NCBI GenBank assembly: GCA_933822405.4
Contig: CAKOGP040002302.1
Location: 1-64,000 of the forward strand
DNA from: Cylindrotheca closterium
Taxonomy: Eukaryota; Bacillariophyta; Bacillariophyceae; Bacillariales; Bacillariaceae
DNA: 64,000 nt
Direction: 5' to 3'
Under the pieces are notes generated by a model. The model made no database searches, was not told the DNA's origin, and worked only from the letters and a program-made list of their open reading frames with translations. The position numbers and the translations under genes were made by a program. Below are positions 36,253 to 60,826 of this stretch, one piece after another; position 1 is the stretch's first letter; each line of letters starts with the position of its first letter.

Positions 36253-36629
36253 TAGAAAACCGAAGTCTATTTCTTGAAACAATAATTGTAGATAATAGCA
36301 AGTCTTTGTCTTTGCTATCACGTTCATAGGGAGAAATGATTAGGGCCAATTGTCAGTTACAAGCAAGATATATCAACTCATCTCCTGAAAACTCTGCAGC
36401 TCTTACCAACTACATTGAAATAGCGGTTGCCCAAATCTAGAAAAAATGGTATAGTACACATGGGTTGGAGAAACATGCAGTCGCAGATCCAATCCGTAAA
36501 ATACGAAGATACCAGATATTGATATCTCATTCCTAAAGGTACAGTACAGCGCCGGTATAAGTACAAGGGTGCAAGCAAAATATAAAGAGGTATGTGTATC
36601 ACTTGACAAAAAAGTTGCACCAAGCAAAC
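36253..36629. other. Intergenic gap left of the inverted repeat
   Basis: AT-rich. It contains GGTACAGTACAGCGCCGGTAT near 36539-36559. No gene is seen. Confidence 0.4.
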
Positions 36630-36921
36630 CTGATTGCTTGTAATTCAAATTTGGGATTTTTCTTTTTGAGATAATTGTACTGCCGCTGCTTGGTATGAGC
36701 ATAGATGAGTCTATAGATGTTTTGAGGCGTCAAGAATGGGGCCAACCTCCTATTCCCACGCATGAAAAATAGCTTCGTTTGGAGGTACCAGATACATTAG
36801 GAAGTTTGGGGGTAGAGAATGGTATTTGAGGCAAAAGGTTGCATTCAGTGGGATTTGAACCCACGCATACGAATATATTCGAACTTGAGTCGAACCCCTT
36901 AGACCGCTCGGGCATGAATGC
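36630..36921. repeat. Left arm of large inverted repeat
   Basis: Reads as the reverse complement of 37934-38346, including the tRNA-Leu gene and blocks such as GGGGCCAACCTCC, CACGCATGAAAAATAG, TTTTGAGGCGTC and CCAAGCAAACCTGATTGCTTG-side sequence. The right arm is about 120 bases longer because of an internal length difference. The tRNA itself is identical; flanks are diverged. Confidence 0.85.
36840..36921 (-). tRNA. tRNA-Leu(CAA), left copy
   Basis: 82 nt type II tRNA. The acceptor GCATTCA pairs with TGAATGC and the discriminator is A. The A box region is TGCCCGAGCGGTCTAAGGGG. The anticodon stem TTCGA/TCGAA encloses loop CTCAAGT (anticodon CAA, reads UUG). A long variable region is followed by T-arm GTGGG-TTCAAAT-CCCAC. 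A TTTT Pol III terminator follows on the minus strand (plus AAAA at about 36832-36835). No intron and no encoded CCA. Confidence 0.93.
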
Positions 36922-37933
36922 TATAACCGTTCAAGAAGAAAACAGATCATATGAAACTCGACTATGTCATTCCAAGCGAGATGCAAAGGCATCTCTTCTC
37001 AAGGATGCTACACGGCGAAACATTAACTCATCTACGATAGTAGCTGGAACCATGCAAGCTGGATTTTGTGCCATCAAGATGAATACTAAACATGTGGTTT
37101 GTTGTGGCAAATCTATTCTTTGAAACGAGACCGGACTTGGGTGTTTGACTTGCTCAAGATTTCATTTTCGTCACTTGGATAATTCAAATGTATCAGGGGG
37201 GTGTTGTCAGTATGGAAGTTAGGATAGAAAAATCATAGTGTGATGGAAACAAGCTTCAAATAGTTGTTTTTAATAAAAACTCACAGCTTGCAGATTCTGC
37301 AATGGAAATATCCTCCAATCGTACTAGTAAGCTGCTTGACCAAACGTAAATGTTGAAGATCAGATGCACCCATGCTGTATTTGTGACGTGGTGCAAAGTG
37401 AAAATCTGCGGATCTTGTGTAGCAGGAATGATACCATCATTGCTTTATGTGAAGTCAAGCTCGATAACTGTGTCTTTGATTTCCAGACCAATTCTTTGAG
37501 ATGCAAGGTAAAAACTCAATGCAGCTTTCTCTTTATTTCTCAACAAGAAACCTGGATGCCGGTCATGCTGCTCAGACTGTTCAGCCTGTTGTATCGATAA
37601 GACTCAAGAGCCATAGAAAGATACATGAGCTCACTGCTTTCAAAAACCTTTCCAATAGATTGAGTAACAGATCATGATGAATGATGATTCAGATTCTGAT
37701 GTGGAGGACATTCCATTGTCTTTTAGGTCAACTACGCCTAAACTAAATAATTTCCTAAATACGGTGACTCTAAATCAGATGGCCAATCTCAAGTCTCTCT
37801 CATTTAATTCTACTCGTTCAAAAAAGAATTCTTCCAAAATCGGAAGTCGCCGTGTTAGTGATAGTGTCGTCTCGTTGCATTGTAATCCAATACAATACAA
37901 ATCTTATACTCATTTTTCGGCATTTGGGTGAAA
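36922..37933. other. Spacer between the inverted-repeat arms
   Basis: About 1 kb, AT-rich, with no recognisable gene. The longest open stretches (near 37364-37600 and 37674-37931) are Ser/Asn-rich and look non-coding, although the second (MMNDDSDSDVEDIPLSF) has a codon pattern that cannot be excluded as a short exon. Confidence 0.4.
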
Positions 37934-38015
37934 GCATTCATGCCCGAGCGGTCTAAGGGGTTCGACTCAAGTTCGAATATATTCGTATGCGTGGGTTCAA
38001 ATCCCACTGAATGCA
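37934..38015 (+). tRNA. tRNA-Leu(CAA), right copy
   Basis: Identical in all 82 positions to the left copy at 36840-36921 but on the opposite strand. TTTT follows at about 38019-38022. Same anticodon CAA; no intron. Confidence 0.93.
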
Positions 38016-38346
38016 ATCTTTTACCTCAAATACCATTCATTTCATCCGACACTGTTCTACCCGCAAACTTCCTGACGTATCTGGTACGAACCCCCGAACA
38101 AAGCTTCTCGGTCTCCACTTTAAAAACAGACATGTCTATCGCGGAACACTGGCTGTTTGCTCGACCTCGGCTCTTCGATCATTCCACTTTTCTATTTTTC
38201 ATGCGTGGGAGTTGGAGGTTGGCCCCACTCTCGACGCCTCAAAACATATATACCGGTAGACTCACTCATCTATGCTCATACCAAGCAGCGACAGAACAAC
38301 TATATGAAAAAAGAAGATCCCAAATTTGAATTACGAGCAATCAGCT
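37934..38346. repeat. Right arm of large inverted repeat
   Basis: Inverted copy of 36630-36921 carrying the second tRNA-Leu. After the tRNA the order of blocks mirrors the left arm (CTCAAATACCATTC, CAAACTTCCTGACGTATCTGG, TTTTTCATGCGTGGG, GGAGGTTGGCCCC, GACGCCTCAAAACAT, CCCAAATTTGAATTAC). An extra ~120 bases lie at about 38090-38185. Confidence 0.85.
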
Positions 38347-38468
38347 TTGATCGATGTTGTTGGTATGTTTCTATATTGGATTATCCCTGAAAAAGCCATC
38401 GAATTCATTTGCAAATGCCTTCAAGCTTTCGAAATTCAGAAAACAATGCAGTCGGGAATGTTGAAATC

Positions 38469-58689: not shown

Positions 58690-59351
58690 CCTTTCACTTA
58701 TGAGCTCAGGTTTCCGCTCTCCAATACCGTCCAGAAGGTTCCAAAGCTGTGAGTTTCACTGCTTCTGCCAATTCCGTTATCAAGATTACAACACCAACGG
58801 TCTCTCTTGTTATTCTGCTGCTGCGCCGCGGTTTGAGTTTTATACGTGATTGAACGATAACGGCTGCACAGATCGGAGTTATAGCGTTGGAGTAGGTACA
58901 TGTACGTACACCATGTACCGGTAGTGCTGTGCTGGCATTTTCAAATAATCCCTTACAGAAGGTTCGAACTTAGTTCCTTTTGGCCAGAACTTGGACTAAG
59001 CACAAAGCAGTACAGTACAGTTCAGTACAGTATTATACCTACTGTATCTATCTGAGAGTGGTAGGACTACTATTGAAGCGCGGCGGAGAAGAATTACGAT
59101 TCAGCAGCCAGGGCGATATCAGTGCTTAGCTGACATTGTATCTTTCCAACAGTTGTGTTGATGTGGGAGGTGGAGATCTCATGCCTGTGAGGAACAAAGT
59201 AAATGAATCGAGCTGTGGTTGTTCGTTCTGGTGGCCTTTCAAATCGAAAGCAATCTGACTCCACAGAAGTGGTCAACATACAGCAGTAAGACAGAAGGTA
59301 CACGTACCTTGTACTCTTGGTGCAGCAAAAACACAAAAATACAAAAGTATT
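58690..59351. other. Gap with dense palindromic words
   Basis: No gene is supported. GGTACATGTACGTACACC lies at about 58894-58911 followed by ATGTACCGGTAG, and ACAGTACAGTACAGTTCAG at about 59008-59026. TTTT runs on the minus strand after the first permuted tRNA are at 59343-59346 and 59334-59338. Confidence 0.5.
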
Positions 59352-59428
59352 CGTAGTCAGACGCCTTACCGTTGGGCCAACGGGCCGGAATAAGCCCGCC
59401 CGGGATTCGAACCCGGAATCTTCTGATT
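59352..59428 (-). tRNA. Circularly permuted tRNA-Arg(ACG), copy 1
   Basis: On the minus strand the 3' half comes first (59428-59393: AATCAGA, variable AGATT, T-arm CCGGG-TTCGAAT-CCCGG, acceptor GCGGGCT), then 6 bases (TATTCC), then the 5' half (59386-59352: acceptor GGCCCGT, U8, A-box TGGCCCAACGG, D-stem GCC/GGC, anticodon stem TCTGA, CTACG). Joined 5'-to-3' the halves make a 71-nt tRNA body: acceptor GGCCCGT/GCGGGCT (7 pairs, two wobble), anticodon stem TCTGA/TCAGA, loop CTACGAA with anticodon ACG, U33 and a full T-arm. The T following the acceptor would be the discriminator. The outer ends pair as GTAG/CTAC with flanking bulges CAAA and GAA, a bulge-helix-bulge-like splice motif. A TTTT terminator lies 5 bases after the 3' bulge. 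Confidence 0.85.
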
Positions 59429-60262
59429 TGCTACTCCTGCATTCCTTATCCGCCAGATTTTATTATAATATTTATAGATAAAAGGGAAAAGTAACAGCAT
59501 CATGATTCTTTCACCAGGTTGTACTCGCACCATCGTAACCCAATTGGCCTATAGTATCCTTCCCTCTCTGATAACGCGTCGATCGTTTTTTAAGTACAGG
59601 AAAGCAACACAAGTGCAACCTCAGCCAAAGAATAACTAAGTACAACCTACAGCAAGAACCCCCCATGGATTGGTGGCTATTCCATCAGGAAGAAGCCACC
59701 AGGGCCACTATTGACTGAATACCACCAAAAGCCTAACAACCATTGTTTGATAAACAAGGCGATATTGCCCGATGCATGATTCTTTTGGACTCCTGGCTTT
59801 GGACAGAGCAGCAACTAGCTACCACTTCCCGTAACCTGACTGGCTGGACTGCCGAGTCCCGAGCAGATATATTAGAGCGATCCAAGGCCAACGGTCGTCG
59901 CCAATCTCAAGCCTAAGATCAATCATCTATCATCTACTCACAGCTGCTTCAGACCCCCGTAAATTCACCCCAATAGCAATAGCAATCACCGCCTATCATG
60001 CCCAACAGTAGCTACATCAATGCACTAGTACGCTCTCTCTACGATGAGAGTCAGGAGCCCAACATTATCACGTTAAGTTCCCTCTTCCATCCCCATCATG
60101 TTCCTTTCCCTACAGTTGTGTCATTCTTTTCTAAAGTTTCCTCTTGGAAGCTTTGTCAATAGTTGTCGTCTTCCAAGGGACAGAACAACAAATAACACTA
60201 GAAAAACGAAATTCCCAAAGGCCACAAAAGTTCAACAACTCCAGATCAGATTTTCAGCCAAG
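59429..60262. other. Gap between first permuted tRNA and tandem repeats
   Basis: AT-rich, mostly featureless. A short frame from ATG 59998 (MPNSSYINALVRSLYDESQE) ends after about 53 residues and has a protein-like start, but there is no family match and no continuation; it could be a lone exon or chance. The upstream region of copy 1 (promoter side) lies at 59429-59480. Confidence 0.35.
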
Positions 60263-60551
60263 CAAGACATCGCGCTTACAATAATTCTGCCATTGCCAAT
60301 AGTCAGAACGTACTTACACAGAGTAGGTACCCCTGCTAAACTGGCAGTAGAACTAGCCAAACAAGACATCGCGCTTACAATAATTCTGCCATTGCCAATA
60401 GTCAGAACGTACATACACAGAGTAGGTACCCCTGCTAAACTGGCAGTAGAACTAGCCAAACAAGACATAGCGCTTACAATAATTCTGCCATTACCAGTGG
60501 TCATAACACACAGTAGGTACCTGGTGCCCCTGCTAAAGTGGCAGTAGAACA
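60263..60551. repeat. 99-bp tandem repeat, about three units
   Basis: Units start at 60263, 60362 and 60461. The first two are nearly identical (two or three differences); the third has a short deletion and an inserted CTGGT near its end. Each unit contains CAAGACATCGCGCTTACAAT and AGTAGGTACCCCTGCTAAA. Because 99 is a multiple of three, frames stay open on both strands through the array, which explains the open reading frames here. Confidence 0.9.
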
Positions 60552-60590
60552 CACATGCATCCGCAGGTGCAAAAGTGAGACTGTCGCAAT

Positions 60591-60667
60591 CGTAGTCAGA
60601 CGCCTTGCCGTTGGGCCAACGGGCCATAGCAAGCCCGCCCGGGATTCGAACCCGGAATCTTCTGATT
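60591..60667 (-). tRNA. Circularly permuted tRNA-Arg(ACG), copy 2
   Basis: Same permuted layout as copy 1: 3' half at 60667-60632, 6-base spacer (TGCTAT), 5' half at 60625-60591. The tRNA halves differ from copy 1 at one position, C instead of T in the D-loop (GGCAA versus GGTAA). The spacer and both outer flanks are largely different from copy 1, yet the outer GTAG/CTAC pairing with bulges TAAA and GAT is kept. TTTT on the minus strand at 60574-60571 is a Pol III terminator. B-box GGTTCGAATCC precedes A-box TGGCCCAACGG in the direction of transcription. Confidence 0.85.
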
Positions 60668-60826
60668 TACTACTGTCAGTGCTCTGGAAACCAAATTTTA
60701 TCTACTTAATTTGCGTCCTAACCATAGCAAAGTTCAAAAGGAATTCATAACCGGTACATTTGCAGGCAAGTGAGTGGTGCTGATGCATGTACTGTCACAA
60801 TGTGGCATTATTTGATTAGTTTCCAC

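Follow-up and report, generated by a model that had tools for sequence, protein, structure and literature searches.

Can a diatom obtain a cytosolic tRNA from a gene in which the 3' half precedes the 5' half? This question is raised by a locus on contig CAKOGP040002302.1 of Cylindrotheca closterium, of which a stretch of 64,000 nucleotides was analyzed (hereafter the window). A reading made from the letters and their open reading frames, the sequence-only reading, had proposed a circularly permuted tRNA-Arg(ACG) gene at 59352..59428 on the minus strand.

Layout of the permuted gene

The reversed order of the halves is present on the minus strand as proposed. The gene (copy 1, 59351-59427) consists of a 36-nt 3' half, a 5-nt spacer, and a 36-nt 5' half. 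The 3' half (59392..59427, ATCAGAAGATTCCGGGTTCGAATCCCGGGCGGGCTT) comprises tRNA positions 38-73, i.e. A38, the 3' strand of the anticodon stem, the variable loop, the T arm, the 3' strand of the acceptor stem, and U73. It is followed by the spacer ATTCC (59387..59391), which links the acceptor ends, and by the 5' half (59351..59386, GGCCCGTTGGCCCAACGGTAAGGCGTCTGACTACGA), which comprises positions 1-37 and ends in CTACGA. The proposed locus is right, but its bounds had to be shifted, since a junction between positions 37 and 38 is the sole one that fits all three copies of the gene (see below). The sequence of copy 1 is compatible with junctions from 36/37 to 39/40, that of copy 2 with 36/37 or 37/38, and that of copy 3 with 37/38 or 38/39; the single junction they have in common, 37/38, is the canonical tRNA-intron site. 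Likewise, the spacer is short as stated, but counts 5 nt instead of 6, as T73 is identical in all three copies and is counted as the discriminator base.

When the halves are rejoined, the anticodon stem (TCTGA/TCAGA), a 5-bp T stem, and a 7-bp acceptor stem containing the two wobble pairs G1.U72 and U7.G66 (ARAGORN drawing) form as predicted, and the anticodon ACG lies in a 7-nt loop. The G1.U72 pair is not regarded as a defect, since a comparison by eye finds it also in the nuclear tRNA-Arg(TCG) and tRNA-Arg(CCT) genes of the same genome. Position 73, compared by eye as well, is U in the three permuted copies (window positions 59392 and 60631; position 1536 of L010) versus A in nuclear tRNA-Arg(TCG) and tRNA-Arg(CCT), a difference that is counted against a functional gene.

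Detection of the rejoined tRNA

Standard tRNA finders had been expected to miss or mis-call such a gene. ARAGORN calls tRNA-Arg(acg) in all three copies when they are rejoined and in none of them in native order, and in the 64-kb window ARAGORN and Rfam, the latter at its gathering threshold, report two tRNA-Leu(CAA) genes and nothing else. The two lie facing outward (36840-36921 on the minus strand and 37934-38015 on the plus strand) within an inverted repeat of about 1.7 kb (window 36618-38356), which has three arm pairs that are 86-96% complementary.

The search for permuted tRNAs that had been suggested was carried out with a held-out covariance model. For this model, 12 ordinary tRNAs were drawn from contigs regarded as nuclear, cut at 37/38, permuted, and supplied with random spacers; the three permuted genes and tRNA-Gly, which had been misaligned, did not enter it. 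The search covered the window and 74 loci (200,416 bases), with L009 and L011-L017 left out as overlapping the window or L010. The three genes rank first with 64.0, 63.3, and 60.2 bits, versus 34.5 bits for the best of the 116 other matches up to an E value of 10, which are largely halves of ordinary tRNAs. In two further sets of 30 and 49 loci, the best scores are 35.8 and 23.8 bits. The reversed-order tRNA-Arg(ACG) at copy 1 is real and not a product of chance.

Three copies and their conservation

An 85-bp repeat of copy 1 with 93% identity is found at 60590-60674 and contains copy 2 (60590-60666, minus strand), which also lies in the window. Its 3' half (60631..60666) is identical to that of copy 1 in 36/36 positions, its spacer is GCTAT (60626..60630, 5 nt), and its 5' half (60590..60625) agrees in 35/36 positions, the exception being a T to C change in the D loop. 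A 99-bp tandem repeat of approximately 2.5 copies occupies window positions 60256-60507 between these two genes. Copy 3 resides on another contig (C529, 307434-307510, plus strand) and has the spacer CTACT. In all three copies the 3' half stands before the 5' half on one strand.

The mature 72 nt are the same in copies 1 and 3 and differ at one D-loop base in copy 2. The spacers ATTCC, GCTAT, and CTACT share only one or two of five letters in pairwise comparison (three or four differ), with the length of 5 nt kept in 3/3 copies. The difference in divergence between spacer and mature sequence yields Fisher p values of 1.8e-5 (copies 1 and 2), 1.4e-4 (copies 1 and 3), and 1.8e-5 (copies 2 and 3). 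Ungapped comparison of the 120-bp flanks gives 19-33% identity between copies. In gapped BLAST of 600-bp flanks, the match is extended upstream by 8 bases between copies 1 and 2 and downstream by 9 bases between copies 1 and 3; no other similarity with an E value below 0.1 is found except the 38-bp overlap of the neighboring copies 1 and 2. Since recent copying of the whole permuted gene or of its precursor would have preserved the spacers, the pattern points to old copies and to selection on the mature tRNA sequence.

Search for an ordinary nuclear tRNA-Arg(ACG)

The sequence-only reading had asked whether an ordinary tRNA-Arg(ACG) gene exists in the genome. Three sequence searches of the 47.6-Mb assembly (572 contigs) found none in the nucleus. 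The rejoined tRNA as DNA query matches six fragments, both halves at each of the three permuted loci and none elsewhere, which makes an ordinary gene interrupted by an intron unlikely. The contiguous 17-nt anticodon arm has no site with up to one mismatch in the 47.6-Mb assembly; with up to two mismatches there are 17 matches, all with two, and one of the 17 lies in a gene called by ARAGORN, tRNA-Arg(CCT). When the query comprises the 25-nt arm together with the variable loop and as many as three mismatches are allowed, the same tRNA-Arg(CCT) is the single match in the assembly; it serves as a positive control, and no ordinary tRNA-Arg(ACG) appears in that search. These searches cover the 572-contig assembly and genes of similar sequence, so that a divergent or unassembled gene could escape them. 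An ordinary tRNA-Arg(ACG) was seen on contig C70 and nowhere else; C70 also encodes Psb28 and is therefore assigned to the plastid.

In the mature tRNA-Arg(ACG), A34 would be converted to inosine. CGT and CGC together account for 159 of the 606 arginine codons in 21 open reading frames of the window, taken as open frames without intron models. Given that no ordinary nuclear gene was found in the 47.6-Mb assembly, the three permuted genes are probably the only cytosolic source of the tRNA reading CGU and CGC.

Transcription signals

Signals around the permuted genes were compared with those of 33 of 35 ordinary nuclear tRNA genes; two genes on C5 (L005 and L050), at that time taken as plastid, were omitted. 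The TTTT stop described for copy 1 is present (59343..59346, context ACTTTTG, 4 nt past the 5' half), and in copy 2 a T4 run (CACTTTTG, 60571..60574) follows 15 nt past the 5' half. The motif TTTTG occurs in all three permuted genes, 4, 15, and 2 nt past copies 1, 2, and 3, and within 40 nt downstream of 26 of the 33 ordinary genes, versus 8% of random 45-nt windows drawn from the 64-kb window. No T4 run is found within the 5-nt spacers.

Upstream of copy 1, an AT-rich region (approximately 59456..59480, minus strand) harbors TATA at two places, 49 and 40 nt ahead of the 3' half. Between -50 and -20, the AT fraction is 0.77, 0.73, and 0.77 for copies 1-3; it averages 0.73 for ordinary genes and 0.54 for the background of this window. 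A literal TATA between -60 and -20 is found in 15/33 ordinary and 2/3 permuted genes and in 6% of background windows. For C. merolae, upstream-directed transcription is argued to allow reversed A and B boxes in the accessible text of Soma (2014) (PMC3978253), and such transcription would account for their tolerance here. RNA polymerase III would transcribe leader, 3' half, spacer, 5' half, and trailer in this order, probably positioned by the AT-rich upstream region, since the A and B boxes stand in reversed order; transcription would end at TTTTG. A search of the assembly for the TFIIIC B-block domain gave no match.

Function and alternative explanations

The proposed functional permuted gene is supported by the layout of the locus, its conservation in three copies, the transcription signals it shares with ordinary nuclear tRNA genes, and the failure to find an ordinary nuclear gene for tRNA-Arg(ACG) in the assembly. 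We regard it as very probable, judging from sequence features, that each locus is a functional type II (37/38) circularly permuted tRNA-Arg(ACG) gene, with a product that matures via a circle and is probably the sole cytosolic reader of CGU and CGC. Points that weigh against this view are U73, the relaxed motif at the outer ends and the ligase results described below, the missing TFIIIC B-block match, and a literal TATA in front of just two of the three copies.

The best of the alternatives, although very unlikely, is rearrangement debris, i.e. a tandem duplication that lost its outer halves and left dead permuted pseudogenes. Such a duplication does exist in this genome: directly behind a tRNA-Thr(TGT) gene on contig C2, the 3' half of that gene is repeated in a 69-bp tandem duplication. 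Against decay stand the 0-1 of 72 mature bases that differ among three copies although spacers and flanks have diverged, the retained terminators and AT-rich upstream regions, and the failure to find an ordinary nuclear gene as a replacement.

Even less probable is an ordinary order of halves in disguise, either a tRNA with a long intron of approximately 1.16 kb, reaching from the 5' half of copy 2 to the 3' half of copy 1, or a trans-spliced split tRNA. Copies 1 and 2 lie 1.24 kb apart on the same strand, so that a 5' half does come before a 3' half. However, a TTTTG terminator stands 15 nt past the 5' half of copy 2, a terminator-like T4 run follows every 5' half, copy 3 holds both halves in permuted order on another contig, and the spacer is constant in length but not in letters.

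The only RuBisCO large-subunit match scores best against PDB 7yk5, 5n9z, 5mz2, 5oya, and 6ftl, and psbV against 8iwh, 6jlu, 6j3y, 8j5k, and 7vd5, all of which we take to be diatom entries, in line with the diatom implied in the sequence-only reading; the contig of the window presumably derives from the same organism as this plastid. An assembly error or a foreign contig is equally improbable: the assembly has 572 contigs including organellar ones, and C550 and C529 are presumed to belong with the plastid of the diatom, but the three loci have different flanks and the contigs that carry them measure 163 and 783 kb, the occurrence of just one match for the RuBisCO large subunit among all contigs speaks for one alga, and the TTTTG terminator habit is common to the ordinary nuclear tRNA genes.

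Proposed processing of the precursor

A functional permuted gene would need its leader and trailer removed at the anticodon loop. The GTAG of the copy 1 leader (AGTAGCAA, 59428..59435, minus strand) is able to form base pairs with the CTAC that occupies positions 32-35 in the 5' half. The sequence-only reading had described this helix with its flanking bulges as conforming to the demands of the splicing endonuclease; the complementarity is there, but that description was overstated. A 4-bp central helix with 3- and 4-nt bulges can form in copies 1 and 2; in copy 1, the 4-nt 3' bulge after the GTAG helix is CAAA, where 3 nt are expected. The leader of copy 3 (GTCG) provides three of the four central pairs and a 3-nt bulge, as judged by eye. 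Energy minimization with the tRNA body enforced favors for copy 1 a long leader/trailer helix that leaves CTAC free, for copy 2 a broken extended helix, and for copy 3 a short helix. Because copies 1 and 2 have a bulge of 4 nt, the central helix of copy 3 contains a mismatch, and copy 1 has a different minimum-energy fold, a strict bulge-helix-bulge (BHB) motif was rejected, and any such motif formed here would be a relaxed one. Relaxed hBH motifs at 37/38 are described for green algae and a nucleomorph in the available text of Soma (2014) (PMC3978253).

Introns at 37/38 occur in ordinary nuclear genes of this genome as well, namely tRNA-Ala(TGC) (L095, L121), which ARAGORN marks, and tRNA-Ala(CGC) (L120) and tRNA-Tyr(GTA) (L143, L146), in which they are read from lengths of 85-92 nt. 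By eye, the Tyr introns show no base at the usual place to pair with position 32, so that a strict BHB is not general in this genome.

The tRNA-intron endonuclease domain PF01974 is found above its cut-off at two loci; when the two open reading frames were rescanned, they scored 47.1 and 27.5 bits, the second being barely over the cut-off of 27. A search of the assembly for RtcB gave no match. One ligase domain PF09511 (T4 Rnl1-type), possibly that of the tRNA ligase, is encoded on contig C113, with T4 RNA ligase 1 as the closest PDB entries and no other Trl1 domains in its reading frame. The following steps are modeled on the pathway for C. merolae and green algae as given in the consulted part of PMC3978253. 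The halves would fold to a cloverleaf with the acceptor ends bridged by the 5-nt spacer, a step supported by the covariance model and folding. The tRNA-splicing endonuclease would then remove leader and trailer at the anticodon loop, and an RNA ligase would seal the ring. Subsequently, RNase P and tRNase Z would excise the spacer, and CCA would be added.

Further permuted genes and related elements

The B-box pattern GGGTTCGANTCCC occurs at 46 places in the assembly, versus two for a reversed-pattern control. They comprise the three permuted tRNA-Arg(ACG) genes, nine organellar and 32 ordinary nuclear genes, and two places without a tRNA called at the match. A broader B-box pattern has 327 places versus 191 for its control; among the 100 of these places that were listed, 40 regions (41 places) with pairing flanks were picked by eye, and these contained three ordinary tRNA genes and no permuted gene. 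The Rfam tRNA search scored 63 of 1908 candidates. No further permuted isotype was found in the class surveyed, with Cys, His, Gln, and initiator Met among the isotypes outside it. Searches for relatives gave no matches in the collections viral_contigs and genome_contigs, neither of which is meant for diatom nuclei.

Several other tRNA-like arrangements were encountered. The tRNA-Thr(TGT) gene with the duplicated 3' half (C2, about 258449-258520, minus strand; L078) resembles the first step of a duplication route to permuted genes. Three tRNA-Ala(AGC) genes (L055, L056, and L057; two on C235, one on C562) have in common a downstream GAGGTTAGANTCCTC arm like a second B box and no T4 run within 25 nt; the arm may be a promoter element external to the gene or a small RNA joined to it. 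A short SINE-like repeat family with a B box, built around GGCGCAGCGGTTCGATTCCGTAATACC with slight variants, is present on several contigs (L130 with two copies, L131, L134, L135, L136, and L138).

Relation to known permuted tRNA genes

The list in the available text of Soma (2014) contains 34 permuted genes, i.e. 11 from C. merolae, 19 from four prasinophytes, two from the Bigelowiella natans nucleomorph, and two from Thermofilum pendens, none of which is a tRNA-Arg(ACG) or of stramenopile origin (PMC3978253). The words diatom, stramenopile, and heterokont are absent from this text. Later additions, as far as the accessible sources report them, are permuted genes of the Amorphochlora nucleomorph and of Auxenochlorella (PMC12633428). 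No report from a diatom or another stramenopile was found in the accessible portions of the literature using 'permuted tRNA' (including PMC4090602, PMC8450103, PMC12633428, PMC13353863, and PMC4033280), a body that mostly excludes subscription papers.

The following comparisons rest on the consulted parts of the sources named. The genes of the prasinophytes Ostreococcus and Micromonas (Maruyama et al., 2010, via PMC3978253) share with the diatom genes the 37/38 junction, the leading 3' half, a short spacer, a putative relaxed BHB (hBH), and, in some cases, an AT-rich upstream region. They differ in spacers of 11-64 nt as opposed to 5 nt and in their isotypes, namely Ser, Leu, Cys, iMet, Asn, and Arg(TCT), whereas the diatom has three copies of one tRNA-Arg(ACG) gene (PMC3978253). 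Cyanidioschyzon merolae (Soma et al., 2007, via PMC3978253) shows the same logic, with an upstream TATA-like signal, a downstream T-stretch, and a two-gene case, Gly(CCC), but its genes are also broken at 20/21, 50/51, and 59/60, and its permuted Arg gene is the type IV CCT. The permuted chlorarachniophyte nucleomorph tRNA-Ser likewise has 5-nt spacers and the 37/38 junction in B. natans; it is, however, a class II tRNA from a relict green-algal nucleus (PMC3978253, PMC4494063). The 5-nt spacer of all three copies also falls within the known range of 1-74 nt (PMC3978253). In Auxenochlorella, a green alga unlike the present case, permuted halves were likewise found once the tRNAscan-SE set proved incomplete (PMC12633428). 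In Thermofilum pendens (Chan et al., 2011, via PMC3978253), permuted halves are also the single source of an anticodon; this organism is an archaeon with a 59/60 junction and an encoded CCA. On these partial sources, the mechanism is known and the lineage new, with permuted genes so far described in red and green algae, in nucleomorphs of green origin, and in a single archaeon, although priority is not proven.

Implications

The sequence evidence makes it likely, at a somewhat lower confidence than the function of the individual loci, that this diatom obtains its entire cytosolic supply of tRNA-Arg(ICG), and with it the decoding of CGU and CGC, via circular RNA from three permuted genes. These would have arisen independently of the permuted genes in red and green algae, possibly through tandem duplication of a 3' half. 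If true, permuted tRNA genes would extend to the stramenopiles, another major lineage of eukaryotes, and would occur in an assembly as large as roughly 48 Mb, and they would explain a tRNA-Arg(ACG) reported missing by standard annotation. The duplication model of their origin would become testable across related diatoms. Several stramenopile species can be cultured and transformed, and the conserved three-copy diatom case would provide a test of whether a cell can rely on a tRNA precursor in circular form to read two essential codons.
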